NCBI RefSeq assembly: GCF_000227685.2
Contig: NZ_CP007029.1
Location: 1,462,501 to 1,526,500, forward strand
Reading direction: 5' to 3'
Length of the DNA stretch: 64,000 nt
From: Thioalkalivibrio paradoxus ARh 1
GTDB taxonomy: Bacteria; Pseudomonadota; Gammaproteobacteria; Ectothiorhodospirales; Ectothiorhodospiraceae
In this document: positions 3,711 through 37,673 of the stretch, one piece after another
Numbering within the stretch: position 1 is the first letter of the stretch
Layout of the letters: each line of letters opens with the position of its first letter
Position numbers and translations under genes: made by a program
Notes under the pieces: generated by a model
What the model saw: only the letters and a program-made list of their open reading frames with translations
What the model was told of the DNA's origin: nothing
Databases searched by the model: none

Positions 3711-3856
3711 GACGGTTTCCGCCGAATTGTGTGTCGTTGCTGTGATAGTGTAGCGCGCCGAAGCGGCGGCTGCGGGCGGGAATGCACCGCCCGGCGCGGG
3801 CATGGTCTGCGCCGGAGTGACCGCGGTAGTGTACGCAATCCGGTGGGAGGATTTTC

Positions 3857-4501
3857 GTGCAAGTGGGGAGCGCCGGGTTCATGCCGCGGCAACAGGACGA
3901 TAACTGGATCGCCGGGGAGCACTGTGCCGGCGTCGACGAGGTTGGGCGCGGGCCGTTGGCCGGGCCGGTGGTCGCGGCCGCGGTGATTCTGCCTGCGGGG
4001 TACGCACTCGCCGGGCTGACCGATTCCAAGCGCCTGTCGGCGCGCCGCCGGGAAGCGCTGGCTGAGGTGCTGCGCGCCGAGGTCGAGGGCTGGGCGCTGG
4101 GCAGCGCCTCGGCCGCGGAGATCGACGCGCTGAACATCCATCACGCGACGCTGCTGGCGATGCGCCGCGCGTTGCTGGCGCTGCCGCGGCCGCCGCAGCA
4201 GGTGTGGGTCGATGGCCGGTTCGTGCCCGAAGGGCCCTGGTCGGCGACTCCGGTGATCGGCGGCGATGGCCGCGTGCCGGCGATCAGCGCCGCTTCGGTA
4301 CTCGCGAAGGTCGCGCGGGACGCCTGGCTTGCGCAATTGCACCAGCGCTATCCGGTCTACGGTTTCGATCGCCATGCCGGGTATCCCACGCGCGCGCATC
4401 TGGCGGCGCTGGCCGAGCATGGGCCCTGCCCGGAGCACCGGCGCAGCTTCGGGCCGGTCGCGCGGCAGTTGCGGCGGGCGGCGGGAGCAGCCGGGCAATG
4501 A
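3857..4501 (+). CDS. rnhB: Ribonuclease HII
   Basis: Removes ribonucleotides from RNA-DNA hybrids and misincorporated ribonucleotides. The 214-residue protein shows the RNase HII signature AGVDEVGRGPLAGPV (catalytic Asp and Glu), LTDSKRLSARRRE and the AISAASVLAKVARD block with its metal-binding region. A strong Shine-Dalgarno GGGAGG at 3845-3850 sits six bases before the GTG at 3857, which favours this GTG over the ATG at 3881. It overlaps dnaE by four bases (ATGA), so the two are translationally coupled. Confidence 0.97.
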   Translation: MQVGSAGFMPRQQDDNWIAGEHCAGVDEVGRGPLAGPVVAAAVILPAGYALAGLTDSKRLSARRREALAEVLRAEVEGWALGSASAAEIDALNIHHATLLAMRRALLALPRPPQQVWVDGRFVPEGPWSATPVIGGDGRVPAISAASVLAKVARDAWLAQLHQRYPVYGFDRHAGYPTRAHLAALAEHGPCPEHRRSFGPVARQLRRAAGAAGQ

Positions 4502-7500: not shown

Positions 7501-7953
7501 GGACGCATGGCGATCGTCACGCTGGACGACCAGACCGGCCGGGCGGAGATCACGCTGTTCGGCGAACACTACCGCGAGCACCAATCGCGTCTCGTACCCG
7601 ATTCCCTGATCGTGGCCGAAGGCACGGTCGCGCTCGACGACTACGCGGGCGGCACTCGCATGCGCGCACAGCGCGTGCTGACCCTGGACGAGGCGCGCGC
7701 GGAATGGGCGCGCGTGCTCGATCTCAGCCTTGCCGCGGTTGGCCCCGAGCACATCCATTCGCTGCATCGGGCGCTCACCGAGCACGATCCTGGCGCGTGC
7801 CGGCTGCGCATGCGCTACCAGCGCGGCAACGCCTGGGCCGAACTGCGCCTGCCCGAGGAGCTCCAGGTCCGCCCGGACGAGCAGCTGCTGCGCCGTCTGA
7901 GCGAGATCCTCGGCGCGCAGAGCCAGGTGGCATTGATTTACGGGAACGCCTGA
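4498..7953 (+). CDS. dnaE: DNA polymerase III subunit alpha
   Basis: Replicative polymerase catalytic subunit, 1151 residues (family about 1160). Domains in order: N-terminal PHP domain (HSEYSLVDG, VTDHCNLFG), palm with the catalytic aspartates in MPDFDIDFCMDRRDRV (about residues 392-406), fingers and thumb (GPGRGSGAGSLVAYALGI, MGKKKPEEMAKQREIF, FAGYGFNKSHSAAYALLAYQ), and a C-terminal OB fold (IAGLVVGVRLRNSQNGRMAI). The start ATG at 4498 overlaps the rnhB stop. An upstream extension of the same frame overlaps rnhB in another frame and is not coding. This is DnaE1, not the error-prone DnaE2. Confidence 0.98.
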   Translation: MNGFVHLRVHSEYSLVDGLVRLKPLVQAVAGAGMPAVAVTDHCNLFGLVKFYRAALAAGVQPIVGADVLLRDARPDGSLARLTLLAQNDVGYRHLTRLISRAWQQGQDRGVPRLDCAWLDGASDGLIALSGSIDGLFVQGSGAPMPLDGELLSPWLTLFPNRFYLELTRSGRPGEEAWIAAALDAAEAFQLPVVATNDVRFLASEDFEAHEARVCIHDGVVLADPRRPRRYSDQQYLRTPEEMAELFADIPEALANSVAIARRCSVRLTLGESVLPDFPVPAGRSVDEQLRLTSHEGLDARLQRHCFAPRGEYTQRLERELDVICQMGFPGYFLIVADFIRWARDNRIPVGPGRGSGAGSLVAYALGITDLDPLRYDLLFERFLNPERVSMPDFDIDFCMDRRDRVIDYVAERYGRDRVSQIITHGTMAAKAVVRDCGRVLGHGYGFVDRIAKLIPFELGMTLTRALQESEELKALYDEDEEVRGILDLALKLEGLTRNAGKHAGGVVIAPSALTDFSPLYCEEGGGSLVTHFDKDDVEAVGLVKFDFLGLRTLTIIDWTLESIRQMPGQQPVDLDLIPLDDPAAFKLLQAYQTTAVFQLESGGMKDLIRRLQPDTFEDIIALVALYRPGPLQSGMVDDFIDRKHGRAQVEYPHPDLEPILKPTYGVILYQEQVMQIAQVLASYTLGGADLLRRAMGKKKPEEMAKQREIFLKGALARGVAESTASYIFDLMEKFAGYGFNKSHSAAYALLAYQTAWLKAHHPAPFMAAVLSADMDNTDKVVGLIEECRSLGLKVDPPDVNRSAYRFSVRDGQTIVYGLGAIKGVGESAIDTLLKARGDGNGFHSLVDLCQRVDLGKLNKRVLETLIRAGAMDGIGPNRATLLAAMPVAVAAAEQAERNAALGVVDLFGEPASAVLPEFETVPELDDDERLRGEKNTLGLYLTGHPVARYRDELRRLTGTTLQELEARLESRPDRNPHRGRQQTARIAGLVVGVRLRNSQNGRMAIVTLDDQTGRAEITLFGEHYREHQSRLVPDSLIVAEGTVALDDYAGGTRMRAQRVLTLDEARAEWARVLDLSLAAVGPEHIHSLHRALTEHDPGACRLRMRYQRGNAWAELRLPEELQVRPDEQLLRRLSEILGAQSQVALIYGNA

Positions 7954-23705: not shown

Positions 23706-25085
23706 ATGAAGAAGATCATCATCCTGGGTGCCGGGCAGGTGGGCTATTCGCTGGCCGAGGCGCTCGGGGCCGACGGCCACGAGATCACCGTGGTCGACCG
23801 GGATCCCCGGTGCCTGGAGGTATTGCGGGACGATCTCGGGGTACGGGTCGTGGCGGGGTTCGCCGCGCATCCACCGGTGCTGAAGGCCGCAGGTGCCGAG
23901 GACGCCGAGCTGCTGGTCGCGGTGACCGATTCCGACGAGGTGAACATGATGGCTTGCCAGGTCGCGTCGACGCTGTTCAACGTCGAGACCCGGATCGCCC
24001 GAGCCCGGGCCGAGGACTACCGGCGGTATCCGCAGCTGTTTGCGCGCGACGCGGTGCCGGTGGACATGCTGATTTCCCCCGAGGAGATCGTGACCACCCA
24101 GATCCACCGGCTGATTCAGCACCCCGGGGCGCTGCAGGTGCTGGATTTCGCCGACGGCCGGGTCGCGCTGGTCGCGGTCCGCGCCTACCACGAGGGCCCG
24201 CTGGTCGGGCGCGAGCTGCGGCGGCTGCGCGGGAGTCGCCCCGGGGTCGAGACCCGGGTGGCCGCGATTTTCCGGCGCGATCGCCCGGTGCGGCCGGACG
24301 GCGACACGGTGATCGAGGCCGACGACGAGGTCTTCTTCGTCGCCGCCAAGCGCAACATCCGTGCGGTCATGTCCGAACTGAGGCATCTCGAACGGCCCTA
24401 CCGGCGCGTGGTGATCGCGGGCGGCGGCAATATCGGCCGGCGGCTGGGCGAGACGCTGGGCGAGGGCTATCACGTGAAGCTGATCGAGCGCGACCCGGCC
24501 CGGGCCGCGCTGCTCGCGGTCGATTTGCCGACGGAGATCCTGGTGCTCGAGGGCGACGCATCCGACGACCGGTTTCTGGAGGAGATCGGCGTCGAGCACG
24601 CGGACGTGTTCTGCGCCGTGACCAACGACGACCAGGCCAACATCTTTGCCGGCATGCTCGCGAAGCGCCGCGGAGTGCGCAAGGTGATCAGCCTGATCAA
24701 CCGACCGAGCTATGTGGACCTGGTCCAGAGCGGTACGATCGACATCGCGATCTCGCCACAACTCGTCACGGTGGCGGCACTGCTCGCGAAGGTGCGAGAA
24801 GGCGGGACCACGGCCGTGCACAGCCTGCGCCGCGGCGCGGCCGAGGCGATCGAGACGGTGGTGTACGGAGACGCGCAGACCTCGCGGGTCGTCGACCGCG
24901 CGGTGGCCGATCTGGAACTGCCCGGAGGCACCAGCATCGGTGCGCTGGTGCGCGGCGACGAGGTGATCATCCCGCACCACGACACCGTCGTCCGGGCCGG
25001 AGATCACGCGATCCTGTTCCTTGCGGACGCCGCTCAGGTTCCGGCGGTGCAGCGGCTGTTCCAGCCCAGCCCCCTGTTCTTCTGA
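23706..25085 (+). CDS. trkA: Trk system potassium uptake protein TrkA
   Basis: Cytoplasmic NAD-binding gating subunit of the Trk K+ channel. 459 residues with two RCK halves. The first Rossmann motif is IILGAGQVGYSLAEAL (residues 4-19), the second is VVIAGGGNIGRRLGETLGEG (about 236-255), and each is followed by an RCK_C region. VDMLISPEEIVTTQIHRLI is typical of TrkA. It lies 57 bases before trkH, so the two form a transporter operon. Confidence 0.97.
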   Translation: MKKIIILGAGQVGYSLAEALGADGHEITVVDRDPRCLEVLRDDLGVRVVAGFAAHPPVLKAAGAEDAELLVAVTDSDEVNMMACQVASTLFNVETRIARARAEDYRRYPQLFARDAVPVDMLISPEEIVTTQIHRLIQHPGALQVLDFADGRVALVAVRAYHEGPLVGRELRRLRGSRPGVETRVAAIFRRDRPVRPDGDTVIEADDEVFFVAAKRNIRAVMSELRHLERPYRRVVIAGGGNIGRRLGETLGEGYHVKLIERDPARAALLAVDLPTEILVLEGDASDDRFLEEIGVEHADVFCAVTNDDQANIFAGMLAKRRGVRKVISLINRPSYVDLVQSGTIDIAISPQLVTVAALLAKVREGGTTAVHSLRRGAAEAIETVVYGDAQTSRVVDRAVADLELPGGTSIGALVRGDEVIIPHHDTVVRAGDHAILFLADAAQVPAVQRLFQPSPLFF

Positions 25086-25142
25086 TCCGATGCCGACCGG
25101 TCCCGCTCACCCGTTCCCTTCGTATCCCGGCGTGCGTTGCGG

Positions 25143-26597
25143 ATGATCCAGCTCGCCACCACCTTGCGGCTGCTCGGCATCCTGGTGACGCTGTTCAGCC
25201 TGACCATGCTGCCACCGGCGCTGATCGGCTGGATCTACGGCGAGGCCAGCCTCTGGGTCTTCCTGCACGCCTTTGTCATTCTGCTGGCGGCTGGTTTGCT
25301 GATCTGGATTCCGTTTTTCTGGTCCCGCGGCGACCTGCATGTGCGCGACGGGTTCGTGGTGGTGGTGATGTTCTGGCTGGTGCTGGGCATTTTCGGGGCC
25401 TTGCCGCTGCATCTCGACCCCGCGCTTCATATCTCGCTCACGGACGCGGTATTCGAATCGATGTCCGGCCTGACCACCACCGGCGCGACGGTCATCGTCG
25501 GCCTCGACGACCTGCCGCGGGCGTTGCTGTGGTACCGGCAGCAGCTGCAGTGGCTCGGCGGCATGGGGATCATCGTGCTGGCCGTGGCGATCCTGCCGCT
25601 GCTGGGGATCGGCGGCATGCAGCTGTTCCGCGCCGAGATGCCCGGCCCGCTGAAGGACAACAAGCTCACGCCGCGCATTGCCGAGACCGCGCGCAACCTC
25701 TGGTTCATCTACCTGGGTCTGACGGTTGCCTGCGCGCTCGCGTACTGGGCGGCCGGGATGGAGGCGTTCGACGCGGTCACCCACTCGTTCAGCACGGTCG
25801 CGATCGGCGGGTTCTCCACCTACGACGCGAGCATCGGCCATTTCGACAGCGCCCTGATCGAATCCGTGGCCGTGGTCTTCATGCTGTTGGGCGGGATGAA
25901 CTTCGCGCTGCATTTCCTGGCCGTGAGGCGCCAGGGTCTCGCACCCTACGCACGGGACGAGGAGGTGCGGTTCTACCTGCTGCTGCTTGCGGCCGGTGCC
26001 GCGATCGCGGTCGCCTATCTGCTCTACGCGGGGGTGGTCGCCGACGCCCCCGAGGCACTGCGCCAGGGGATCTTTCATGCCGTATCGATCGGCACCACCA
26101 CCGGCTATGCGACCACCGAGTTTCACCTGTGGCCGGGATTTCTGCCGGTGATGCTGGTGTTCCTGTCATTCGTCGGCGGCTGCACCGCATCGACCGGCGG
26201 CGGGATGAAAGTCATCCGTGTACTGCTGCTCGCCAAGCAGGGATTGCGCGAGATCCAGCGGCTGATCCATCCGCATGCGCATATCGCGGTCAAGGTGAAC
26301 GAGCGGGTAATGCCGGATCGGGTGGTCGAGGCAGTCTGGGGCTTCATGGCCGCCTACATTCTCGTGTTCGCGCTGATGACGCTGGTGTTGATGGCTTCGG
26401 GGCTCGATCAGGTCACATCCTTCTCCGCGGTGGCGGCGACGCTGAACAATCTGGGGCCTGGCCTCGGTGACGTCGGCGCGAACTACGCCGGCATCAGCGA
26501 TTTCAGCAAGTGGGTGCTCGTCTTCTCGATGCTGCTCGGACGCCTGGAGATCTTCACCGTGCTGGTGCTGCTGTCGCCCGCATTCTGGCGGCGGTGA
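25143..26597 (+). CDS. trkH: Trk potassium uptake channel TrkH
   Basis: 484-residue channel subunit of the Trk K+ uptake system in the inner membrane, with many hydrophobic segments. The four pore-loop filters are visible: SGLTTTGAT, TVAIGGFST, GTTTGYATT and NNLGPGLG. SFVGGCTASTGGGMKVIRVL is also diagnostic. I chose the ATG at 25143; a TTG two codons upstream is possible. K+ uptake of this type matters for osmotic and pH balance. Confidence 0.97.
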   Translation: MIQLATTLRLLGILVTLFSLTMLPPALIGWIYGEASLWVFLHAFVILLAAGLLIWIPFFWSRGDLHVRDGFVVVVMFWLVLGIFGALPLHLDPALHISLTDAVFESMSGLTTTGATVIVGLDDLPRALLWYRQQLQWLGGMGIIVLAVAILPLLGIGGMQLFRAEMPGPLKDNKLTPRIAETARNLWFIYLGLTVACALAYWAAGMEAFDAVTHSFSTVAIGGFSTYDASIGHFDSALIESVAVVFMLLGGMNFALHFLAVRRQGLAPYARDEEVRFYLLLLAAGAAIAVAYLLYAGVVADAPEALRQGIFHAVSIGTTTGYATTEFHLWPGFLPVMLVFLSFVGGCTASTGGGMKVIRVLLLAKQGLREIQRLIHPHAHIAVKVNERVMPDRVVEAVWGFMAAYILVFALMTLVLMASGLDQVTSFSAVAATLNNLGPGLGDVGANYAGISDFSKWVLVFSMLLGRLEIFTVLVLLSPAFWRR

Positions 26598-26750
26598 GCG
26601 AGGGGGCTGCGCTGGCCGTGTCCGTCGCTGCGCCACGCGGAGCGCGTGCGGCACGATGGCCTGCGTGAGTCGGACCGCAGCTGCGCTACGTGACACCACG
26701 TACTCCATCGGGGCCTGGCCGCCGGTACCTTGTAGGTGGAGGGTACCGAT

Positions 26751-27872
26751 ATGAGCCATTTCAAGATCAGGAAAACACCGGACCAAACGCTCCGACACGG
26801 CGAGGCGAACGCGGCCATCCAGCCGCGGCCCGGTAGATCGGCCGGCACTCGAGCGCCGGACCGTGCCGCGCTGCTTGCCGTGGGGTTTCTCGCCATGGCC
26901 ATGCTTGCGTTCGCGCTGTTCGCGCACGGCTGCTCGCCCAACAACACCTCGCCCGATAGCCCACGGGCTCAGACGATGAACGGCTTCGACGTATCGAACA
27001 GTGCGGTCCCGCTGGACGAGATCCACCGCGGCGGACCGCCGCGCGACGGGATTCCCGCGCTGACCGATCCGGAATTCATTGGCGCCGACGGCGCTCATGG
27101 ACTGCGGGACGACGACCGGGTGCTGGGGGTCTTCCGCAACGGTGTGGCCAAGGCGTATCCGCTGGGCATCATGAACTATCACGAGGTCGTGAACGACCTG
27201 TTCGGCGCGGAACCGATCGCGGTGACCTACTGCCCGCTGTGCTTCACCGGAATCGCGTTTCAGGCCGAGCAGCCGGACGGCTCGCGCCGGACGTTCGGCG
27301 TGTCCGGGCTGCTCTATAACTCCGACGTGCTGCTGTACGACCGCGAGACCGAGTCCCTGTGGTCACAGATCGCGGCGCGTGCGATCACAGGCCCCCTGCG
27401 CGGTGAGACGCTGGAGATGGTGCCGCTCGCGAATACCACCTGGGAAGCCTGGCATGCCGAGCATCCAGATACCCGGGTGCTGTCGCGCGACACCGACTAC
27501 GCTCGCAATTACGATCACGATCCGTATGCAGCCTATGCCGAGGACGAGGCCCTGATGTTCCCGGTCCGCTTCCGGATGCAGGCCATGCACCCGAAGACCC
27601 CGGTGCTGGGAGTGCGGATCGGTGACCACGCCCGCGCCTATCCGTTCGCGGAATTCCCGGAAACGGGCCGCCATCGCGTCGAGGACACGCTCGGAGGCGA
27701 GGTGATCACACTCGACGTCGACGCGGATGCCCAGACCGGGCGCGTGTTCGATTCCCGGGGCGAAGAACTGACGAGCCTCATCGCGTTCTGGTTCGCCTGG
27801 TTCGCTTTCCATCCCGAAACGGAACGTTACACCGGCGATCCCCCGGCGGTTCCGATCGAGGATGGGGTCTGA
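26751..27872 (+). CDS. DUF3179 domain-containing membrane-anchored protein
   Basis: 373-residue protein: a hydrophilic N-terminal segment of about 40 residues, one transmembrane or signal-anchor helix (LLAVGFLAMAMLAFALFAHG), then a periplasmic DUF3179 domain. Conserved features are GVAKAYPLGIMNYHEVVND and VTYCPLCFTGIAF with its Cys-x-x-Cys, plus LYNSDVLLYDRETESLWSQ. Shine-Dalgarno GGAGGG at 26738-26743, seven bases upstream, supports the ATG at 26751. HGC after the helix resembles, but does not fit well, a lipobox. The function of DUF3179 is unknown; I see no operon partner. Confidence 0.88.
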   Translation: MSHFKIRKTPDQTLRHGEANAAIQPRPGRSAGTRAPDRAALLAVGFLAMAMLAFALFAHGCSPNNTSPDSPRAQTMNGFDVSNSAVPLDEIHRGGPPRDGIPALTDPEFIGADGAHGLRDDDRVLGVFRNGVAKAYPLGIMNYHEVVNDLFGAEPIAVTYCPLCFTGIAFQAEQPDGSRRTFGVSGLLYNSDVLLYDRETESLWSQIAARAITGPLRGETLEMVPLANTTWEAWHAEHPDTRVLSRDTDYARNYDHDPYAAYAEDEALMFPVRFRMQAMHPKTPVLGVRIGDHARAYPFAEFPETGRHRVEDTLGGEVITLDVDADAQTGRVFDSRGEELTSLIAFWFAWFAFHPETERYTGDPPAVPIEDGV

Positions 27873-28242: not shown

Positions 28243-29742
28243 TCAATGCCGCTCGGAGGGCGCCGCGCGGGTGAAGATCGAATAGAGCAGCACCACGCCG
28301 ATCGGATATAGCGACGCCAGCGCGACCAGTCCGAAGCCGTCCAGCAGCACGTCGTCGCTCTCCAGTGCGACTGCGAGCCCGACGCCCAGTGCGGCGATCA
28401 CCGGGACGGTGACGTCCGAGGTTGCGATGCCGCCGAGGTCGAACGAAAAGCCCACGAGGTCGCGTGGCGCGAGCAGGGTCAACAGCATCAGCCCGAGCAC
28501 CGTGAATACCAGCACGTGCTCCAGTGGCCATCCGGTGACCAGGCGCAGCGTGCCTACTCCCAAGCCGAGACCGACGCCGAGGGCCACCAGGCCCCGGATC
28601 AGCGGCGGATGCAGGCGCCGGGGCGCCAGCGTGCCGGCGCGCCGTGCTACCGCGATCAACGCCGGTTCGACCAGTGTCGCGGCGAAGCCGAGCAGGAATA
28701 CGAACAGGTACAGGAACACGGCGCTGCCGGCACCCGCAAGACCCGCAGCGAGATGCTCGCCGATCGGGAACAGGCCGAGGTGCAGCCCTTCGGTGAACGC
28801 GAACAGCCCGGCGACCAGGAACAAGAAACCGCCCACCAGCCGGTGCGGATGCAGCAGTGGGCGGCGGATCACGAGTAGCTGGAACACCAGGACCACCGCG
28901 ACGATCGGCAGCAGGTTGCCGAGGATTCGCAGCAGGTCGGTTGCGAGCAGAACCAGCGCAGCGTGTCCCGCACGGCCGTCGTACGCGGGCAGTGGAGCCG
29001 TTGCTGCCCCGGTGTAGCCCGCGAGCGCGGCCGGCTCGAACGCGTAGACGACGATCCCGTAGATCTGTACCGCGACCCGGGGCGCGAACACGGCCAGCGC
29101 GACCAGGCCGAAACCGTCGGCCAGCACGCTGCGACCGCGCAGCGACGCCATCAGGCCGATCCCGAGCGCGGTCACCAGCGGCACGGTGACGATATTGGCG
29201 CTGACCGCCCCGGCGTCGTAGGCCAGCCCGGTGACCTCCGGTGGCGTCAGGTAAGTGACGGGCACCAGCAGCAGGTAGCCACCGATCAGGTACCAGTGGA
29301 CGGGGTGGTTCAGTACCGCGCGCAGGATCCCGAGTGCGACCACGGCCCCCACCGAGCCGGCGACGACGATGCGCAGCGTCCACGCCTGGATCAGGCCGTC
29401 GCTGACGGTCTGCGCCTTGTGCGCGACCGCGATCAGTGCGGGCTCGGCGATCACCGCCGCGAAGCCGAGGCAAAAGCCGAACGCGAGCAGCCACGGCAAT
29501 GAGCCCTTCTCTGCGAAGGCATTGGCGAGGCTGCGCCCAACCGGAAACACGCTCAGTTCGAGGCCACGCAGGAACAGCCCGATTCCGACCGCGACCAGCG
29601 CCAGACCCGCGATCACGGGGAGGACCCCCTCCGGGATTTCGCGCAGCACCACCGCTTGGAACAGCGCGACGACCGCGATCACCGGCAGCAGGTTGCGGCC
29701 GGACTTCAGTACGCCGCGCGCCAGTTCGCCGAACTCACCCAT
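28243..29742 (-). CDS. DUF1538 integral membrane protein, putative transporter A
   Basis: 499-residue polytopic membrane protein made of two homologous halves. Each half opens with a NLLPI.AVV.LFQ.LV helix, then has LGFAA...EPALIAVA (residues about 92-107 and 340-355), then a VTVP conserved segment (ANIVTVPLVTALGIGL; TSDVTVPVIAALGVGLA). That duplicated, inverted-repeat-like plan is typical of secondary transporters. DUF1538 proteins have no established substrate that I know. It is divergent from a PII-like gene and a second DUF1538 gene. The ATG at 29742 fits the start of conservation; upstream frame is shadow. Confidence 0.88.
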   Translation of the reverse strand: MGEFGELARGVLKSGRNLLPVIAVVALFQAVVLREIPEGVLPVIAGLALVAVGIGLFLRGLELSVFPVGRSLANAFAEKGSLPWLLAFGFCLGFAAVIAEPALIAVAHKAQTVSDGLIQAWTLRIVVAGSVGAVVALGILRAVLNHPVHWYLIGGYLLLVPVTYLTPPEVTGLAYDAGAVSANIVTVPLVTALGIGLMASLRGRSVLADGFGLVALAVFAPRVAVQIYGIVVYAFEPAALAGYTGAATAPLPAYDGRAGHAALVLLATDLLRILGNLLPIVAVVLVFQLLVIRRPLLHPHRLVGGFLFLVAGLFAFTEGLHLGLFPIGEHLAAGLAGAGSAVFLYLFVFLLGFAATLVEPALIAVARRAGTLAPRRLHPPLIRGLVALGVGLGLGVGTLRLVTGWPLEHVLVFTVLGLMLLTLLAPRDLVGFSFDLGGIATSDVTVPVIAALGVGLAVALESDDVLLDGFGLVALASLYPIGVVLLYSIFTRAAPSERH

Positions 29743-29964
29743 CAAGAATCCCTTGCCGTTCCCTGCACGCGATCTCCTGCCGAGCATCCGCCGGTCGTCT
29801 GCGCACTGCAGGTCGCGCGAATCCGCGCGCCTCATTGCCCAAGAAGGGTCATCGTGCCCGAGTTGGCGCGACCTTCCCACCCGGGGCCGGCCCTGCCGGC
29901 CGGTGCCGGCCATTCCGGCGGCTATGGTATTGTCGGCGCAGGTTCGAAGTTGCGGGGAATGGCC

Positions 29965-30333
29965 GTGAAGGCGAAGCTTCTGGTGGCCGTGGTGGCCGAC
30001 GAACTCGAGGAGGCGGCAAGGGAGATCGCGCGCGAGGAGGGTGCCCGCGGCATGACGCTGCTGTCCGCGCACGGGATGAACTTCCCGGAACACATCACCT
30101 TCTTCGGCCTGACCTACCTCGGGATCGAGACGGTGCTGGTCGCGCTGCTGGACGAAGCCACCGCGGCCCGGATCGCGGAGCGGCTGAATGTGGAGCTGAA
30201 GTTGCTGGAACCGTTCCAGGGGCTCGCGTTCTGCCTGCCGGTCGACGGCACCGGCGGGATCGACATCGACGCGCTGCACCGGCATATTGCCGACCATGCC
30301 CCGGCCGGTCGGCTGGAAGGCGGCGACCGCTGA
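29965..30333 (+). CDS. PII-like signalling protein 1, linked to DUF1538
   Basis: About 122 residues, ferredoxin-like PII fold suggested by KLLVAVVADELEEAAREIA, GARGMTLLSAHGMN and FFGLTYLGIETVLVALLDEA. Its alignment with the protein at 31888 (MKFALLVAILAEDLEE) favours the GTG at 29965, with GGGGA six bases upstream, over ATG 29959. The classic PII T-loop with Tyr51 is absent, so uridylylation control is unlikely. It precedes the second DUF1538 gene by 43 bases. By analogy with GlnK-AmtB and SbtB-SbtA it may gate the transporter. Confidence 0.8.
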   Translation: MKAKLLVAVVADELEEAAREIAREEGARGMTLLSAHGMNFPEHITFFGLTYLGIETVLVALLDEATAARIAERLNVELKLLEPFQGLAFCLPVDGTGGIDIDALHRHIADHAPAGRLEGGDR

Positions 30334-30376
30334 AACCCACCCCGGACCGACTTATCCAACGGACTGCACCGCGCCC

Positions 30377-31891
30377 GTGAGCCAGATCAGGGAATTCCTG
30401 CACCTGCTGAACCACGCGTTCCGCAACCTGCTGCCGATCATTCTGGTGGTCAGCGTGTTCCAGTTCCTGGTGATCCGCCAGGTGCCGGACGCCTGGCTGC
30501 CGATGGCGGTCGGATTGCTGGTGGTGGTGCTCGGCGTCGCGCTGTTCCTGCACGGGCTGGAACTCGGGATCTTCCCGATCGGGAAGAACCTGTCGAACGA
30601 ATTCGCGCGCAAGGGTTCATTGCCGCTGCTGATGGTCTTCGGCTTCTGTCTCGGCTTCGCGGCGGTGATCGCCGAGCCCGCACTGATCGCGGTCGCGAGT
30701 CAGGCCGAGATCATCAGCGAGGGACGCATCAGCGGGCTCACGCTACGGCTGCTGGTCGCGGTGTCGGTCGGGCTGGTGGTCGCGCTGGGCGTGGTCCGGA
30801 TCCTGCTGGGGCACAGTCTGCACTGGTACATGATCATCGGGTACATCTTGGTCGTGATCGTGACCTTCTTCGCCCCGGCGGAGATCGTCGGGCTGGCCTA
30901 CGACTCCGGCGGCGTGACCACCAATATCGTCACCGTGCCGCTGATCGCGGCATTGGGAATCGGGCTGGCGATGTCGATCCGCGGCCGCAACGCGTTGATC
31001 CACGGCTTCGGGCTGGTCGGACTCGCGGTGATGGTGCCGATGATCTCGGTGCAGATCTACGGGATCATCGTCTACAGCTTCGGCGAGGCCCGCGAGGTCG
31101 CCGAGGGGATCCGGGAAGCGGTGGATCCCGAGGTGTCCGAGGTGGTCCACGAGGTCGCCGGCAGCGTGCTGCTGGGGATGCTGCGCGACCTGATGATCAT
31201 GTTCCGCGACGTGCTGCCGATCATCGCGGTGGTGCTGGTGTTCCAGTATCTGGTGATCCGCAAGCACGTGGCCCACCTGCACAAGGTGATGGGCGGTTTC
31301 GTGCTGGTGATCGTCGGGCTGTACGCGTTCGTCGTCGGCCTGAAGATGGGCCTGTTCCCGATCGGCCAGAGTATGGCGGAACAGCTGATCGGGCTCGACC
31401 GCTGGATTTTCGTCTACCTGTTCGCGTTCGCGATCGGATTCGCGACGACGATGGCCGAGCCCGCGCTGATCGCGATCGGCCAGAAGGCCGAGGAGGCCGC
31501 GAAAGGGAAGCTGAACGGCACGGTGATCCGGCTGCTCGTGGCGGTCGGCGTCGCGGTCGGCATCACCATCGGCGTGCACCGGATCATCAGCGGCGACTCG
31601 ATCCACTACTACATCATGGCCGGCTACACGGTGGTGATCCTGCTGACCTTCCTGTCGCCGAAATACATCGTCGCGCTGGCCTACGACCTCGGCGGCGTGA
31701 CCACCTCCGAGGTGACCGTGCCGCTGGTGACCGCGCTGGGCATCGGCCTGGCCACCCACATCGAGGGGCGCAACGTGATGATCGACGGCTTCGGCCTGAT
31801 CGCGTTCGCTTCGATCTTTCCGATAATATCCGTGATGCTCTATGCCATCGCGGCCGAACTCGCCAACCGATGGAGAGGAACTGAATCATGA
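30377..31891 (+). CDS. DUF1538 integral membrane protein, putative transporter B
   Basis: 504 residues with a GTG start and two homologous membrane halves. Matching motifs are CLGFAAVIAEPALIAVASQA and AIGFATTMAEPALIAIGQKA, then TNIVTVPLIAALGIGLAMS and TSEVTVPLVTALGIGLATH. About 12 hydrophobic segments are visible, with a charged linker (residues about 230-265, Glu-rich) between halves that paralogue A lacks. The stop overlaps the second PII-like gene by ATGA, strong evidence that the two products work together. The substrate is unknown; an ion or small anion is a guess. Confidence 0.88.
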   Translation: MSQIREFLHLLNHAFRNLLPIILVVSVFQFLVIRQVPDAWLPMAVGLLVVVLGVALFLHGLELGIFPIGKNLSNEFARKGSLPLLMVFGFCLGFAAVIAEPALIAVASQAEIISEGRISGLTLRLLVAVSVGLVVALGVVRILLGHSLHWYMIIGYILVVIVTFFAPAEIVGLAYDSGGVTTNIVTVPLIAALGIGLAMSIRGRNALIHGFGLVGLAVMVPMISVQIYGIIVYSFGEAREVAEGIREAVDPEVSEVVHEVAGSVLLGMLRDLMIMFRDVLPIIAVVLVFQYLVIRKHVAHLHKVMGGFVLVIVGLYAFVVGLKMGLFPIGQSMAEQLIGLDRWIFVYLFAFAIGFATTMAEPALIAIGQKAEEAAKGKLNGTVIRLLVAVGVAVGITIGVHRIISGDSIHYYIMAGYTVVILLTFLSPKYIVALAYDLGGVTTSEVTVPLVTALGIGLATHIEGRNVMIDGFGLIAFASIFPIISVMLYAIAAELANRWRGTES

Positions 31892-32235
31892 AATTTGCTT
31901 TGCTCGTCGCGATCCTCGCCGAGGATCTCGAGGAAAAGGCGATCGACGTCGCCAAGGATGCCGGCGCCGGCGGGGTCACGTTGCTGGATGCCCGCGGCAT
32001 CGGTGCCAAGGAAAAGAAAACCTTCTTCGGGTTGACCTACGAGGGCTCGCAGACCGTGCTGATCTGCGTGCTGGAAAAGAAGCTCTCGCTGGCCGTGATG
32101 AAAGCGCTGACCGTGAAGCTCGACCTCGCGAAGCACTCCAAGGGCGTCGTGTTCACCGTGCCGCTGGATCACATTGCCGGGATCGACACCCGCCAGCTCG
32201 AGCGCTTCGAGGAGCGGATCAAGGACGACATCTGA
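31888..32235 (+). CDS. PII-like signalling protein 2, coupled to DUF1538
   Basis: 115 residues: MKFALLVAILAEDLEEKAID, GAGGVTLLDARGIGAKEKKT, FFGLTYEGSQTVLICVLEKK, then KGVVFTVPLDHIAGID. The layout is beta-alpha-beta-beta-alpha-beta like PII, with a short or altered T-loop. It is paralogous to the protein at 29965 and translationally coupled to the transporter. A nucleotide or second-messenger ligand is inferred from the family; no binding residues can be fixed here. Confidence 0.82.
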   Translation: MKFALLVAILAEDLEEKAIDVAKDAGAGGVTLLDARGIGAKEKKTFFGLTYEGSQTVLICVLEKKLSLAVMKALTVKLDLAKHSKGVVFTVPLDHIAGIDTRQLERFEERIKDDI

Positions 32236-32475
32236 GCACGCAGCCCCGAACGCCCCGCGGTGGCTGCGCAGTGAGCCAGGTCTTCCCGCTCCCGGGCCGG
32301 AGCCATACCCGCGAGCGGCCGTGGCCCCGCGCCCTGAGAGGGGAAACGAAAGCGCAGCTCCGGAATCGCCAGTACCACCGGCCGGCGCGGCGGGCGATAT
32401 GCCGAACTCACCGAGGCGGGCCGCCTGCCGTGGCGGCTGCCCGATTTCCGACATTGCGAATGCACTGGAGACACC

Positions 32476-32889
32476 ATGCTGGTTAAGGACATCATGCAGA
32501 CCGATGTGGTCACCATCTCGCCGCTGGCCACGTTGCGTGAGGCGATGGCGAAGATGAAGGCCCACCGCGTGAAATCGCTGATCGTCGAACGCCGCGACGA
32601 GCACGATGCCTACGGAATCATCACCTACACGACGATCCTGCGGACGATCGTCGCCGAGGAGGGCGACATCGATCTGGTCAACGTCTACGACGTCTGCACC
32701 AAGCCCGCGCTGATCGTGCCCCAGGTGATGGACGTCAAGTACGTTGCACGCATGATGGTCGCCCAGAACCTGCAGCGCCTGGTCGTGCTCGAACACGGCA
32801 ACCTCGTCGGGCTGGTCACGATGAACGACATCGTCGGCGAGGTGCTGGCGATGGCCGAACGGAGCCACATCGAGGGGGCCGGGGAGTAG
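32476..32889 (+). CDS. CBS-pair domain protein
   Basis: 137-residue protein consisting of two CBS motifs: MLVKDIMQTDVVTISPLATL with REAMAKMKAHRVKSLIV (residues 1-36), and KPALIVPQVMDVKYVARMMV followed by QRLVVLEHGNLVGLVTMNDI. CBS pairs bind AMP, ATP or SAM and regulate partners. It follows the DUF1538/PII cluster on the same strand after a 240-base gap with no gene. Joint function with the transporters is an inference from position. Confidence 0.85.
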   Translation: MLVKDIMQTDVVTISPLATLREAMAKMKAHRVKSLIVERRDEHDAYGIITYTTILRTIVAEEGDIDLVNVYDVCTKPALIVPQVMDVKYVARMMVAQNLQRLVVLEHGNLVGLVTMNDIVGEVLAMAERSHIEGAGE

Positions 32890-33080
32890 CCGGGTTGCGG
32901 AACCGTCGCTGGGCCGGCACCCAGACACCTCCGCCCGCGTGACCGCCTGGCCGGCGGCTCCGCGAGCGCGGCGGGGAAAGACCGGGTCGGCTACACTCGA
33001 AATCAGGGACCGGAGGATGCCGCATGTGAACCCGGCCACCGGGGGGCGTGCGGGCCTCGGGTGTTGCCGGGAGACTGGAC

Positions 33081-33545
33081 ATGCACGCATCCGTGCGCGA
33101 ATCCGCGAAGAACGCTATTCCCGCACTGCGCGGTGGCTGGGAGCATTTTCCCCACGAGGCCGACATGGGGGTTCGAGGGCATGGCGACACGCTCCCGGAC
33201 GCCTTTGCGGCAGTGGCCGAGGCGACGATTGCGGTGGTGACCGACCCGGCAGGGATCGACCCCGCGGAGCGGGTCGAGTTCGCGTGTTCCGCGTCCGACC
33301 CGGACCTGCTGCTCTACGATTTCCTGAACGCGATCGTGTACGAAATGGCGGTCGGTGGACGGCTGTTCTCCCGGTTCCGGGTGCAGATCGAAGGCGAAAC
33401 GCTGCGCACCGAGGCCTGGGGCGAGCCGGTGGATGGCAGGCGCCACCAGCCGGCGGTCGAGATCAAGGGCGCCACCTTCACCCAGCTTGCCGTGCGGCAG
33501 GCCGCCGACGGCTCCTGGATCGCGCAGTGCGTGCTGGACATCTGA
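33081..33545 (+). CDS. Archease
   Basis: 154-residue archease, the protein cofactor that speeds RtcB guanylylation and turnover. Typical features are WEHFPHEADMGVRGHGDTLPDAF (in two parts WEHFPHEADMGVRG and HGDTLPDAFAAVAEA), DLLLYDFLNAIVYEMAV and the C-terminal KGATFTQLAVRQ. GGGAGA before ATG 33081 supports this start over an upstream GTG at 33048. It precedes rtcB by 52 bases. Confidence 0.9.
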   Translation: MHASVRESAKNAIPALRGGWEHFPHEADMGVRGHGDTLPDAFAAVAEATIAVVTDPAGIDPAERVEFACSASDPDLLLYDFLNAIVYEMAVGGRLFSRFRVQIEGETLRTEAWGEPVDGRRHQPAVEIKGATFTQLAVRQAADGSWIAQCVLDI

Positions 33546-33597
33546 CCGGCACGCGCGCCACCTGCTGAATCCGGCCGGACCGGGGAGGGCAGAGACC

Positions 33598-35028
33598 ATG
33601 GACATCAACCGATTCACGAAGGTATCCGATACGGCCTGGCGGCTCGAGCCGCAGGGCGCGATGCGGGTACCCGCGGTGATCTATGCCGACGAAGCGCTCC
33701 TGGCCGACATGGACGACAAGGTTGCCGAACAGGCGTCGAACGTCGCGATGCTGCCGGGGATCGTGCAGGCCTCCTACGCGATGCCCGACGCCCACTGGGG
33801 CTACGGCTTCCCGATCGGCGGCGTCGCGGCCTTCGATGCCGAGCAGGGCGGGGTGGTCTCTGCCGGCGGCGTCGGCTTCGACGTGTCCTGCGGCGTGCGC
33901 ACGCTGCTGACCGGGCTGGATCACCGGGCCATCGAGGCAGTCCAACCGCGACTGGCCGATGCATTGTTCGCGGGCATTCCGGCGGGCCTGGGCAGCACCG
34001 GCCAGATCCACCTGCGGGACCAGCAGATGACCGACATGCTGCGCGGCGGGGCCGCCTGGGCCGTCGAACGGAGTTTCGGCCAGCCGGAGGACCTGGAGCG
34101 GATCGAGGAACGCGGGCAGATGGCGGGCGCCGATCCCGAAGCCGTGTCGCAGCAGGCGCGCAAGCGCCAGCGCAACGAGATGGGCACGCTGGGGTCCGGC
34201 AACCACTACCTCGAGGTTCAGCACATCACCCGCGTCTTCGACCCCGATGTGGCGGCCGCCTTCGGGCTTGCGGAGGGTCAGGTCGTGGTGTCGATCCATT
34301 GCGGGTCGCGGGGCCTTGGCCACCAGATCGGCACCGAGTTCCTGCGCGAGATGGCGATCGCGGCCCAGGGGCATGGAATCGATCTGCCGGACCGGGAACT
34401 GGCCTGCGCGCCGATCCATTCGGAAATCGGCCAGCGCTACCTGGGGGCGATGCGCGCGGCGATCAACTGCGCGCTCGCGAACCGGCAGATCCTGACGCAC
34501 CTGGCCCGTGAGGTCTTCGCCGAGGTGCTGCCCGATGCCAACCTGCGCCTGCTCTACGACGTTTCGCACAATACCTGCAAGACCGAGCGCCACGTGGTCG
34601 ACGGGCGCGATCGCGAACTCTACGTGCATCGCAAGGGCGCGACCCGGGCGTTCGGTCCCGGCCATCCGGATCTGCCCGAGGCGCTGCGCGGCGTGGGCCA
34701 GCCGGTATTGATCGGCGGTTCCATGGGCACTGCGTCGTACATTCTCGTCGGCACGAACGAAGGCGAGAGGCTTTCGTTCAACTCCGCCTGCCACGGCGCG
34801 GGCCGGGCGATGAGCCGGCATCAGGCGACGCGTCAATGGCGCGGGCGGGCGCTGGTCGACGAACTCGCCGCCCGCGGGATCCTGATCCGCAGCCCCAGTC
34901 TGCGCGGCGTCGCCGGGGAGGCTCCGGGCGCCTACAAGGACGTGAGCCGGGTGGTTCAGGCGAGCCACGACGCCGGCCTCGCGCGCCTGGTCGCCCGCGT
35001 CGAACCGATGGTCTGCATCAAGGGCTGA
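33598..35028 (+). CDS. rtcB: RNA-splicing ligase RtcB
   Basis: GTP- and Mn-dependent ligase joining RNA 2',3'-cyclic phosphate or 3'-phosphate ends to 5'-OH ends. 476 residues. Signatures: YAMPDAHWGYGFPIGGVAAF, GGVGFDVSCGVRTL (metal Cys), GSGNHYLEV, HCGSRGLGHQIG, YDVSHNTCK and SACHGAGRAMSR, whose His is the nucleophile that takes GMP. GGGGAGG at 33582-33588 sets the ATG at 33598. Paired with archease, as in many RNA repair operons. No RtcA or RtcR is nearby. Confidence 0.96.
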   Translation: MDINRFTKVSDTAWRLEPQGAMRVPAVIYADEALLADMDDKVAEQASNVAMLPGIVQASYAMPDAHWGYGFPIGGVAAFDAEQGGVVSAGGVGFDVSCGVRTLLTGLDHRAIEAVQPRLADALFAGIPAGLGSTGQIHLRDQQMTDMLRGGAAWAVERSFGQPEDLERIEERGQMAGADPEAVSQQARKRQRNEMGTLGSGNHYLEVQHITRVFDPDVAAAFGLAEGQVVVSIHCGSRGLGHQIGTEFLREMAIAAQGHGIDLPDRELACAPIHSEIGQRYLGAMRAAINCALANRQILTHLAREVFAEVLPDANLRLLYDVSHNTCKTERHVVDGRDRELYVHRKGATRAFGPGHPDLPEALRGVGQPVLIGGSMGTASYILVGTNEGERLSFNSACHGAGRAMSRHQATRQWRGRALVDELAARGILIRSPSLRGVAGEAPGAYKDVSRVVQASHDAGLARLVARVEPMVCIKG

Positions 35029-35189: not shown

Positions 35190-37673
35190 ATGGCAATCAA
35201 GAAATCCGAACTCTACTCCTCCCTCTGGGCCGGCTGCGACGAGCTGCGCGGCGGCATGGACGCGTCCCAGTACAAGGACTACGTCCTGTTCATGCTGTTC
35301 ATCAAGTACATCTCGGACAAATACGCCGATTCCGACGATTTCGCCCCGCCGGTGATCATTCCCGAGGGCGCCAGCTTCGCCGACATGATCCAGCTCAAGG
35401 GCAAGAGCGATATCGGCGACAAGATCAACACCCGGATCATCCAGCCGCTGATCGAGGCCAACCAGCGCCTGGCGCGCAGCGACTTCCCCGATTTCAACGA
35501 CCCCAACAAGCTTGGCGAAGGCAAGGCGATGGTCGATCGCCTGACCAACCTGATCAGCATCTTCCAGAAGCCGGAGCTGAACTTCGCCAGGAACCGCGCC
35601 GAGCACGACGACATTCTGGGCGATGCCTACGAATACCTGATGCGCCACTTCGCCCAGGAAAGTGGCAAGAGCAAGGGCCAGTTCTACACCCCGTCCGAAG
35701 TCAGCCGCATCATGGCCCAGGTGATCGGCATCGCGCCTGAAAACACCAAGGCCGCCACCACCGCCTATGACCCGACCTGCGGCTCCGGCTCGCTGCTGCT
35801 GAAAGTGGCCGCCGAGGCCGGCAAGCACATCACCCTGGAAGGGCAGGAGAAGGACGTCACCACCGCCGGTCTGGCGCGCATGAACATGATCCTGCACGAC
35901 TTTCCCACCGCCAACATCGTGCAGGGCAACACCCTGGCCAATCCCAAGTTCAAGGATGGCGAAGTACTGCGCACCTACGACTACGTGGTCGCCAATCCGC
36001 CGTTCTCGGACAAGGGCTGGAGCGCCGGCATCACGCCGGAAGAAGACCCCTTTCAGCGTTTTGCCTGGGGTGCGCCGCCGGCCAAGCAGGGTGACTACGC
36101 CTACCTGCTGCACATCGTCCGCTCGATGAAATCCAGCGGCAAGGGCGCGGTCATCCTGCCCCACGGCGTGCTGTTTCGCGGCAATGCCGAGGCCGCCATC
36201 CGCAAGCAACTGGTGCGCTCGGGCTACCTGAAAGGCATCATCGGCCTGCCGGCCAACCTGTTCTACGGCACCGGCATCCCCGCCTGCATCCTGGTGCTGG
36301 ACAAGGAAAACGCTCCGGCTCGCCGTGGCATCTTCATGATCGACGCCGCCAGGGGCTTCATCAAGGAGGGCAACAAGAACCGGCTGCGCGAGCAGGACAT
36401 CCACCGCATCGTCGATACCTTCAACAAGCAGGTCAATGTGCCGCGCTATGCCCGCATCGTGCCCTTCGACGAAATCGCCGACCCGAAGAACGACTACAAC
36501 CTCAACCTGCCGCGCTATATCGATGCCAGCGAACCGGAAGACCGCCACGACCTGCACGCCCACATGAACGGCGGCATCCCCGAGCGTGACATCGACGGCG
36601 ACCCGGCGGCCATCCCGCCGGTGCCGGGCCTGGCCGCCTACTGGCAGGTCTTTCCCACCCTGCGCCGCAAGCTTTTCTCCCCTCTCCCGCCTGCGGGAGA
36701 GGGGCCGGGGGTGAGGGAAGGCTATACCCACCTTGCCGTTGATCCCACCGCCATCAAGCCCACCATCCTGGAACACGCCGAGTTCGCTGCCTTCAGAGGC
36801 CGTATCACTGCCCTGTTCGAAGACTGGCGCCGCCGCAACCGGCCCGTGCTCAAGGGCTTCGGCGTGGACGGCCTGCCCAAGGCCCTGATCACCGAAATCG
36901 CTGAAGACCTGCTGGACACCTTCCGCGCCGCGCCCCTGCTCGACCCCTACGACATCTACCAGCACCTGATGGACTACTGGTACGAGACCCTGCAGGACGA
37001 CGCCTACGAAATCGCCGCCGATGGCTGGGTGGCCAAACCCCGCCGCGTGCTTGAAGAGATCAAGACCGGCAAGAAGAAAGGCCAGATGAAGGAGAAGGGC
37101 TGGGCCTGCGACCTGATCCCCAAGCCCTACATCGTCGCCCGCTATTTCAAAGCGCAGCAGGCCGAACTGGATGCCCTGCAAAGCGACCTCGACTTCGTCG
37201 CCGCCCAGCTCACCGAGCTGGAAGAGGAACACGGCGGCGAGGACGGCGCCTTCGCCGAACTCGACAAGATCAACAAGGGCGAGGTCAGCAAGCGCCTCAA
37301 GGCGCTCAAGGGCGATCCCGAATACCTGGAGGAGGCCAGGATCCTCAAGCAATGGACCCAACTCGACCAACGCCAGAGCGAGCTGAAAAAACTGATCAGG
37401 GACGCCGACGCCGCCCTCGACCAACTCGCCTACGAGAAATATCCCGAACTCAGCGAGGACGAAATCAAGACCCTGGTGGTCGACGACAAATGGCTCACCG
37501 CCCTGGAAACCGCCGTGCAGAACGAGCTGGAGCGCGTCTCCCAGACCCTCACCGCCCGCGTGCGCCAACTTGCAGAACGCTATGAAACCCCGCTGCCCAA
37601 ACTGGCCGATGAGGTGGAGACCCTGTCGGCGCGGGTGGACGAGCACCTGAAGACCATGGGGGTGGCTTGGTGA
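35190..37673 (+). CDS. hsdM: Type I restriction-modification system methyltransferase subunit HsdM
   Basis: N6-adenine methyltransferase subunit of a type I system. 827 residues, longer than the usual 500. The N-terminal helical domain is followed by motif I YDPTCGSGSLLLK (about residue 190-203) and motif IV VVANPPFSDKGW. The extended C-terminal part (from about 560) includes a coiled coil, AELDALQSDLDFVAAQLTEL, and a SELKKLIRDADAALDQLAYE segment near the end. Residues about 495-511 (LFSPLPPAGEGPGVREG) come from an inserted palindromic repeat kept in frame. The stop overlaps hsdS (TGATG). Confidence 0.95.
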   Translation: MAIKKSELYSSLWAGCDELRGGMDASQYKDYVLFMLFIKYISDKYADSDDFAPPVIIPEGASFADMIQLKGKSDIGDKINTRIIQPLIEANQRLARSDFPDFNDPNKLGEGKAMVDRLTNLISIFQKPELNFARNRAEHDDILGDAYEYLMRHFAQESGKSKGQFYTPSEVSRIMAQVIGIAPENTKAATTAYDPTCGSGSLLLKVAAEAGKHITLEGQEKDVTTAGLARMNMILHDFPTANIVQGNTLANPKFKDGEVLRTYDYVVANPPFSDKGWSAGITPEEDPFQRFAWGAPPAKQGDYAYLLHIVRSMKSSGKGAVILPHGVLFRGNAEAAIRKQLVRSGYLKGIIGLPANLFYGTGIPACILVLDKENAPARRGIFMIDAARGFIKEGNKNRLREQDIHRIVDTFNKQVNVPRYARIVPFDEIADPKNDYNLNLPRYIDASEPEDRHDLHAHMNGGIPERDIDGDPAAIPPVPGLAAYWQVFPTLRRKLFSPLPPAGEGPGVREGYTHLAVDPTAIKPTILEHAEFAAFRGRITALFEDWRRRNRPVLKGFGVDGLPKALITEIAEDLLDTFRAAPLLDPYDIYQHLMDYWYETLQDDAYEIAADGWVAKPRRVLEEIKTGKKKGQMKEKGWACDLIPKPYIVARYFKAQQAELDALQSDLDFVAAQLTELEEEHGGEDGAFAELDKINKGEVSKRLKALKGDPEYLEEARILKQWTQLDQRQSELKKLIRDADAALDQLAYEKYPELSEDEIKTLVVDDKWLTALETAVQNELERVSQTLTARVRQLAERYETPLPKLADEVETLSARVDEHLKTMGVAW
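36675..36718. repeat. Palindromic repeat inserted in frame within hsdM
   Basis: CCTCTCCCGC and GCGGGAGAGG form a stem with two loop bases, followed by a GGCCGGGGGTGAGGG tail. This is the common proteobacterial intergenic repeat that translates as SPLP.GEGPGVR. Here it lies inside hsdM without breaking the frame. It falls at a junction between the methyltransferase core and the C-terminal part, so it may be tolerated as a linker. Confidence 0.8.

Follow-up and report, generated by a model that had tools for sequence, protein, structure and literature searches.

Organization of the gene cluster

We examined a 64,000-nucleotide stretch of the Thioalkalivibrio paradoxus ARh 1 genome (contig NZ_CP007029.1, positions 1,462,501 to 1,526,500; hereafter the window), in which two membrane proteins of the DUF1538 family are encoded together with two small PII-like proteins and a protein carrying a pair of CBS domains. 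The original prediction had described this arrangement as a candidate PII-gated transport system, and all five genes are present where it placed them (Table 1). The gene for PII1 diverges from that of DUF1538-1 on the minus strand, and the plus strand carries PII1, DUF1538-2, PII2 and the CBS gene in that order. The ATGA overlap between the second PII-like gene and its transporter, likewise foreseen, is exact at 31888-31891. We chose the GTG at 30377 as the start of DUF1538-2, while the scans reported below ran on 30380-31888. A profile search of the window's genome (one contig, 3,756,729 bases) recovered no further DUF1538 locus.

Table 1. Features of the DUF1538-PII cluster and its upstream context (window positions)
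Feature	Position	Strand	Description
trkA + trkH, K+ uptake	23706..26597	+	upstream context, outside the cassette; TrkA_N 178.5 bits, TrkH 316.8 bits
DUF1538-1	28243..29742	-	membrane protein of 499 aa, UmpA-UmpB-type fusion; divergent paralogue
PII1	29959..30333	+	PII-like, 124 aa, small; divergent paralogue
DUF1538-2	30377..31891	+	fused UmpA-UmpB-type membrane protein, 504 aa with the GTG start
PII2	31888..32235	+	PII-like, 115 aa, small; overlaps DUF1538-2 by ATGA
T-loop of PII2	32002..32046	+	residues 39-53, motif TFFGLT
CBS-pair protein	32476..32889	+	137 aa, optional third partner; PF00571 twice, 78 bits

Recurrent pairing of DUF1538 with PII

Loci were picked by DUF1538 alone, from 398 genomes of Pseudomonadota (126 with a match), 58 genomes of relatives (40), 150 of Campylobacterota (21) and 246 of Actinomycetota (17), together with the best 80 of 585 query relatives, among which the nearest named ones are Thioalkalivibrio and its neighbours. 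A subset of the matches was fetched, and because this sample mixes evenly drawn genomes, close relatives and the best 80 query relatives, the loci are not independent. From 251 distinct loci, 12 with a contig end within 600 nucleotides downstream were dropped, fusions being kept regardless of room; the resulting 239 leave out identical DUF1538 stretches, the window itself and loci L001-L010 and L261-L280.

A PII open reading frame (ORF) on the same strand, ending at most 900 nucleotides downstream of DUF1538, was found in 212 of the 239 loci, and in another 18 the DUF1538 protein itself carries the PII as its C-terminal domain. Four loci carry the PII on the other side (L041 and L051, which resemble DUF1538-1 of the window, and L177 and L178), and in one (L258) the start of a PII is visible, with the rest hidden by a run of N. 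Counting this last locus, pairing is seen in 235 of 239, so that the recurrent DUF1538-PII association that the original prediction proposed to look for is borne out by the survey. Chance would place a PII within 900 nucleotides on a given side in about 0.5 of 239 loci, against 212 seen, a level derived from the six P-II matches (one below the cut-off) in the window's 3.76-Mb genome. The idea that these are merely unrelated neighbours was rejected, since the pairing occurs in four phyla and as fusions.

The reverse search, with the PII family profile A4 over 200 genomes, returned 83 genomes with both DUF1538 and PII and 110 with neither; DUF1538 without an A4-type PII occurred in a single genome (G172, which holds the locus with the run of N). 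Here the DUF1538 labels were taken from the Pseudomonadota survey, the 200 genomes being assumed to be G000-G199. A mirror-tree comparison of DUF1538 with PII over 189 loci gave a correlation of 0.755 (permutation maximum 0.085), uncorrected for shared phylogeny. Beyond the surveyed phylum sets, nine plasmid records carry a DUF1538 that is 26-35% identical to the query, and all seven of the plasmid copies that were opened (Clostridia and Alphaproteobacteria) pair it with PII: the five annotated plasmids (Methylocystis, Chelativorans, Paraclostridium, Peptoclostridium and Vescimonas) list DUF1538 followed by a P-II family nitrogen regulator, and in the unannotated ones from Acetoanaerobium and Subdoligranulum the PII was found by profile.

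Several arrangements depart from one DUF1538 gene and one PII gene. In the clostridial plasmid records (L276-L280) the PII gene clearly encodes a tandem double PII in four of five, and in the fifth (Vescimonas, L278) the first PII domain is weak (domain E 0.067). Loci L241, L242, L246 and L248 encode a DUF1538 protein of about 600 residues with two PII ORFs in a row. In L177, from the Campylobacterota set, the cluster is rearranged but intact (5521-7760), in the order PII, CBS, DUF1538. In L087 (Nitrincola, 2489-7463), L265 and L267 the DUF1538-PII-CBS cassette occurs twice in a row, once in two-gene and once in fused form, and a further PII flanks the two on one side.

The membrane proteins and the UmpAB family

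Each DUF1538 protein of the window contains PF07556 twice (376.1 bits for DUF1538-1 and 442 bits for DUF1538-2, cut-off 22.6), with EPALIA and VTVP signatures in each half, which confirms the two homologous halves originally described. Against the NCBIfam models, DUF1538-1 scores 382.4 bits for UmpA and 294.6 for UmpB, and DUF1538-2 scores 442.0 and 397.6, all under the equivalog cut-offs of 490 and 500. In both of these tandem DUF1538 proteins the best model is UmpA for the first half and UmpB for the second. By sequence, both window proteins thus fall into the same family as UmpAB, with scores that stop short of certifying equivalent function. UmpA and UmpB are paired DUF1538 proteins of Halomonas zhaodongensis that act jointly as a Na+(Li+,K+)/H+ antiporter with an optimum at pH 9, and they co-precipitate as a heterodimer (PMC5484666). 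The transporter had first been presented as undescribed in family and substrate; that description falls, as DUF1538 is the family of this antiporter. The window proteins would, by analogy with the Halomonas pair, be antiporters as well, and DUF1538 is among the Pfam families predictive of growth pH (PMC13255231).

Hydropathy gives seven segments per DUF1538 half, and counts of lysine and arginine (K/R) in the loops show an opposite charge bias in the two halves, by which the C-terminus of the transporter is predicted to be cytosolic. No relative of DUF1538 was found in the PDB by sequence at E < 1 (one search was empty up to 10, and the other gave one unrelated match at 1.4), and the 50 structure matches listed for a model of a fused DUF1538-PII protein align to residues 515-641 only, leaving the fold of the membrane part unplaced. 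In five actinobacterial loci (L152-L156) a single-domain DUF1538 gene (241-248 residues) lies beside one PII (105-124 residues) and has weak K/R loop bias. As a lead only, its product is a candidate dual-topology homodimer and a possible ancestor of UmpA and UmpB; this suggestion rests on those five proteins, because two of the seven rows in the single-domain charge-bias group are truncated pieces (L077 and L145).

The Halomonas family allows a closer look at the genes around the characterized pair. Among 151 genomes of the family to which locus L080 (Halomonas campaniensis) belongs, 34 match the UmpB model, six of them above the equivalog cut-off of 500 bits. In all six of these loci (L261-L266) a PII gene adjoins umpB, with a CBS gene next in five, and the seven lower-scoring loci that were fetched (L267-L273) all carry PII, two of them (L267 and L271) with a CBS gene. 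The UmpAB clone was a 4.2-kb fragment with one truncated and three intact ORFs, of which umpB was the last, and a keyword check of the available text of that paper found PII, P-II and CBS all unmentioned (PMC5484666). Because PII adjoins umpB in all six equivalog loci and the clone ended at umpB, the natural PII of the characterized UmpAB was, judging from these six relatives, very probably missing from the published assays.

The PII-like proteins

PII2 scores 32.1 bits with the Pfam P-II model (cut-off 25), and PII1, 39% identical to it, falls below at 16.5 bits; PII1 reaches 124.8 bits with profile A4, which includes PII1 among its rows. Single-chain AlphaFold2 models of PII2 and of the PII domain from the fusions (11 fused rows as input for the latter) both adopt the PII fold, a beta-alpha-beta-beta-alpha-beta arrangement with a T-loop; for PII2 this is what the original prediction required of the small proteins. 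The solved folds nearest to these models are headed by SbtB, tied with GlnK-type PIIs. A chance Pfam match was considered and rejected on the strength of this fold and of profile-to-PDB matches (9p1x, E 2.7e-7).

The T-loop of PII2 contains the segment KKTFFGLT, short and with a hydrophobic tip. Among 198 unique separate-gene family sequences from the fetched loci, the FFG tip is conserved (F46 in 160, F47 in 153 and G48 in 187), the basic pair ahead of it less uniformly so (K43 in 110, K44 in 134), and the R-G-x-G at the base of the loop is retained (R36 in 154, G37 in 182, G39 in 170). The canonical YRGAEY motif occurs in none of the 198, nor in PII1 or PII2, and is present in GlnK and GlnB of the same genome. 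The statement that the classic T-loop tyrosine is missing therefore stands for this motif and fails as a general one, since PII1 and PII2 both carry a T-loop tyrosine (LTY), at a position that is itself unconserved (Y in 60 and L in 83 of 198). The accompanying proposal, control by ligand and not by uridylylation, fares similarly: uridylylation at the canonical motif is unlikely, and ligand control is plausible. PII2 has lost the residues that we take to be the canonical ATP and 2-oxoglutarate contacts (R38A, Q39K, K58 gap, K90V, R101G and R103D), and a ligand must therefore bind otherwise or be another molecule. The C-terminal CGPxGC motif is absent from the sequences of PII1 and PII2; it is conserved in some SbtB proteins only (PMC8352866).

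Fusions and the CBS partner

The 18 fusions, 638-686 residues long as read, all come from the Campylobacterota sets and have the domain order DUF1538, DUF1538, P-II; the two that were scanned score above the Pfam cut-offs for both families. In a tree of the PII proteins the fused domains (10 kept) form one clade with a support of 100/100, although with 120 columns for 112 rows the deep branches are unresolved, GlnK/GlnB and SbtB lying on long branches.

The CBS gene is less constant. Where 1.5 kb of downstream room was available, it follows 76 of 98 one-gene, 42 of 75 two-gene and one of 10 single-DUF loci, and none of 17 fusion loci, which makes CBS an optional layer of the system and PII the constant one. 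In its second domain, over 145 aligned rows, G112 is kept in 99%, D118 in 95% and T115 in 50%, forming a G-x-x-T-x-x-D motif; G-x-x-[ST]-x-x-D in CBS domains is a ligand motif, typical of adenosine ligands.

Genomic context and other PII loci

A TrkH relative occurs in 14 of 250 fetched loci, from Campylobacterota and other lineages, a count taken over unequal flanks and without a computed chance level. The nearby trkAH genes, graded at first as a weak clue to function, become a somewhat stronger one through this recurrence in several lineages. Over 200 loci the recurring flank families include Kef-type exchangers (8), cyclic-nucleotide-gated channels (10) and SulP permeases (11), and the two flank clusters with the widest spread, in 24 and 21 loci, resemble general signalling families. 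This context fits monovalent ion and pH homeostasis, short of proof.

Elsewhere in the window's genome, GlnK lies beside an ORF that is AmtB-like and that we take to be AmtB (L005), and a separate SbtA-SbtB pair is present (L007), which brings the PII-transporter pairs of this genome to three kinds (DUF1538-PII, GlnK/AmtB-like and SbtA-SbtB).

A proposed PII-gated antiporter and its alternatives

We consider it probable that the cluster encodes a cation/proton antiporter of the UmpAB type whose own PII gates it by means of a short T-loop. A PII-gated transport system, as originally proposed, remains the best reading given the near-constant pairing, the 18 fusions and the PII fold of PII2 and the fused domain, from which we infer the gating itself. 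In this model DUF1538-2 and its paralogue DUF1538-1 would each be a monovalent cation/H+ antiporter of the UmpAB type in one polypeptide, with its two homologous halves lying in opposite orientation in the membrane and a cytosolic C-terminus. PII2, and likewise PII1, would be a dedicated regulator that docks on the cytosolic face, where its T-loop (KKTFFGLT in PII2) may enter or cap the ion path. Antiport would be turned down, or released, once PII binds a small molecule reporting energy or ionic state, and the adjacent CBS protein may, in many species, bind such a molecule too. The physical complex, the plugging by the T-loop, the direction of control and the ligand are all proposals within this model. 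For SbtA-SbtB it is reported that the T-loop of SbtB reaches through hydrophobic contacts into a cleft of SbtA, where it obstructs part of the exit, much as GlnK does in AmtB (PMC8352866). In the PIIs of DUF1538 loci the T-loop has stayed short and hydrophobic at its tip, and the same kind of plug is proposed for the antiporter. Cyclic di-AMP was rejected as the ligand here: no diadenylate cyclase match was found in the window's genome by a search that was positive in 11 of 14 control genomes, making this nucleotide an unlikely ligand in this organism.

A number of observations weigh against the gated antiporter. Four of the 239 loci (L186, L224, L226 and L240) have no neighbouring PII, their genomes holding an A4-type PII elsewhere, at least one beside another DUF1538 copy, and six of the 200 genomes in the reverse search have an A4-type PII and no DUF1538. 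The window's own genome holds an A4-matching PII (92.7 bits) away from DUF1538 (L009, 3332851-3333183). Both window transporters lie under the UmpA and UmpB equivalog cut-offs, so their ion specificity may differ. The T-loop is barely more conserved than the rest of the protein (mean 2.37 versus 2.2 bits), the fused PIIs have NFYR- or NFYN-like sequences in place of FFG, and for loop 3 the K/R bias agrees with the model in the fused proteins only. Known PIIs are trimers, yet UmpAB is described as a heterodimer. UmpAB is active in E. coli without PII, and PII is therefore not needed for transport (PMC5484666). Binding and control of DUF1538 by PII are themselves predictions.

PII could instead regulate a DUF1538 transporter that naturally carries something other than Na+ or K+, be it bicarbonate, ammonium or some further small ion, as the partners of SbtB and GlnK do. 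Antiport in the E. coli triple mutant would then be a side activity. The first rank of SbtB among solved folds (tied with other PIIs), the SulP permeases in 11 of 200 flanks and the SbtA-SbtB and presumed AmtB-GlnK pairs of the same genome all suit this idea, but SbtA is already available there, and TrkH, Kef-type and channel genes recur in the flanks too. Antiport was also measured with Na+, Li+ and K+ (PMC5484666), and we regard a different substrate as unlikely. It is more improbable still that PII is not a switch but a structural or assembly subunit, which keeps the cytosolic face of the transporter together and binds no ligand. Fusion and near-constant pairing would be expected of an obligate subunit, and the canonical ATP and 2-oxoglutarate residues are lost; the R-G-x-G base of the T-loop is nevertheless kept, well-studied PII proteins are sensors, and UmpAB works in E. 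coli without PII (PMC5484666).

The relation could also be turned around, with DUF1538, as an anchor or a sensor, sequestering PII at the membrane, and the main PII target elsewhere, such as TrkAH or transcription. AmtB can sequester GlnK, TrkAH lies near the cluster, and the related PII of L009 stands alone near a P-type ATPase. Against this, no other gene recurs nearly as often beside DUF1538 (the widest other family reaches 24 of 200 loci), and the fusions bind PII to the transporter, so that we hold sequestration to be very improbable. The P-type cation ATPase near the L009 gene is an observation in its own right, and the two may form a second PII-transporter pair.

Relation to known systems

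The proposed gated antiporter resembles several described systems in part. UmpAB (NF041627/NF041628, PF07556) belongs to the same membrane family, and each window protein holds a UmpA-like and a UmpB-like half, but as a single fused chain below the equivalog cut-offs, and the UmpAB paper, in its available text, is without mention of PII or CBS. In SbtA-SbtB the PII gene also stands next to the transporter gene, and SbtB is the top-ranked solved fold; inverted repeats are likewise a feature of SbtA, into which the T-loop of SbtB inserts (PMC8352866). The window transporters are, however, DUF1538 and not Sbt_1 (SbtA, PF05982), and their PIIs lack CGPxGC and have the T-loop TFFGLT. AmtB-GlnK is likewise a transporter-PII gene pair, whose T-loop plugging is the model for the mechanism proposed here, whereas the window PIIs lack YRGAEY, the ATP and 2-oxoglutarate residues are lost in PII2, and the transporter is from an antiporter family and not an ammonium channel. 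A PII-like protein plus a CBS protein are also found in PstA/DarA and DarB/CbpB, described as cyclic di-AMP receptors where this nucleotide serves ion homeostasis; the window's genome has no diadenylate cyclase match, and the gene setting differs.

The new part is thus the PII pairing, the transporter family being already known; compared with the original prediction, the regulatory part is stronger and the transporter part less novel. No paper joining DUF1538 or UmpAB with PII was found among the matches listed by searches of open-licence PubMed Central full texts, and a report in a subscription journal is possible. The parts are known and stand side by side as neighbours in database annotation, and the combined system is not described in the literature searched. 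PII proteins are a widespread signalling family. Transporters named as PII-regulated in the available text of a 2023 review are AmtB, Amt1, Nrt, Urt and SbtA. If the model is correct, this would be the first antiporter under PII control, as far as our literature searches show. With a cation/proton antiporter that has a PII of its own, PII control would reach into ion and pH homeostasis, and the sole characterized DUF1538 antiporter would have been assayed without its natural regulator.

A wider picture, on which our judgement is evenly divided, is a whole family of PII-gated cation/proton antiporters across Pseudomonadota, Campylobacterota, Actinomycetota and Clostridia, in which the transporter would consist of two opposite-facing halves and not of a known trimer. 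Such a family may have evolved from a dual-topology gene, as in Actinomycetota, through a gene pair and a fused transporter to the transporter-PII fusion, and in many lineages CBS would add a second sensor of nucleotides.

Neighbouring genes

Between trkH and DUF1538-1 lies a gene for a DUF3179 protein of unknown function (26736-27872, 294.4 bits), with a relative in only two of the 250 fetched loci. Beyond the cluster, window positions 33048-35028 hold an archease gene (123.4 bits) followed by an ORF, presumably RtcB-like, whose longest reading overlaps the archease gene. An HsdM-type N6 methylase follows at 35190-37673 (N6_Mtase 326.7 bits) and probably belongs to a type I restriction-modification locus.

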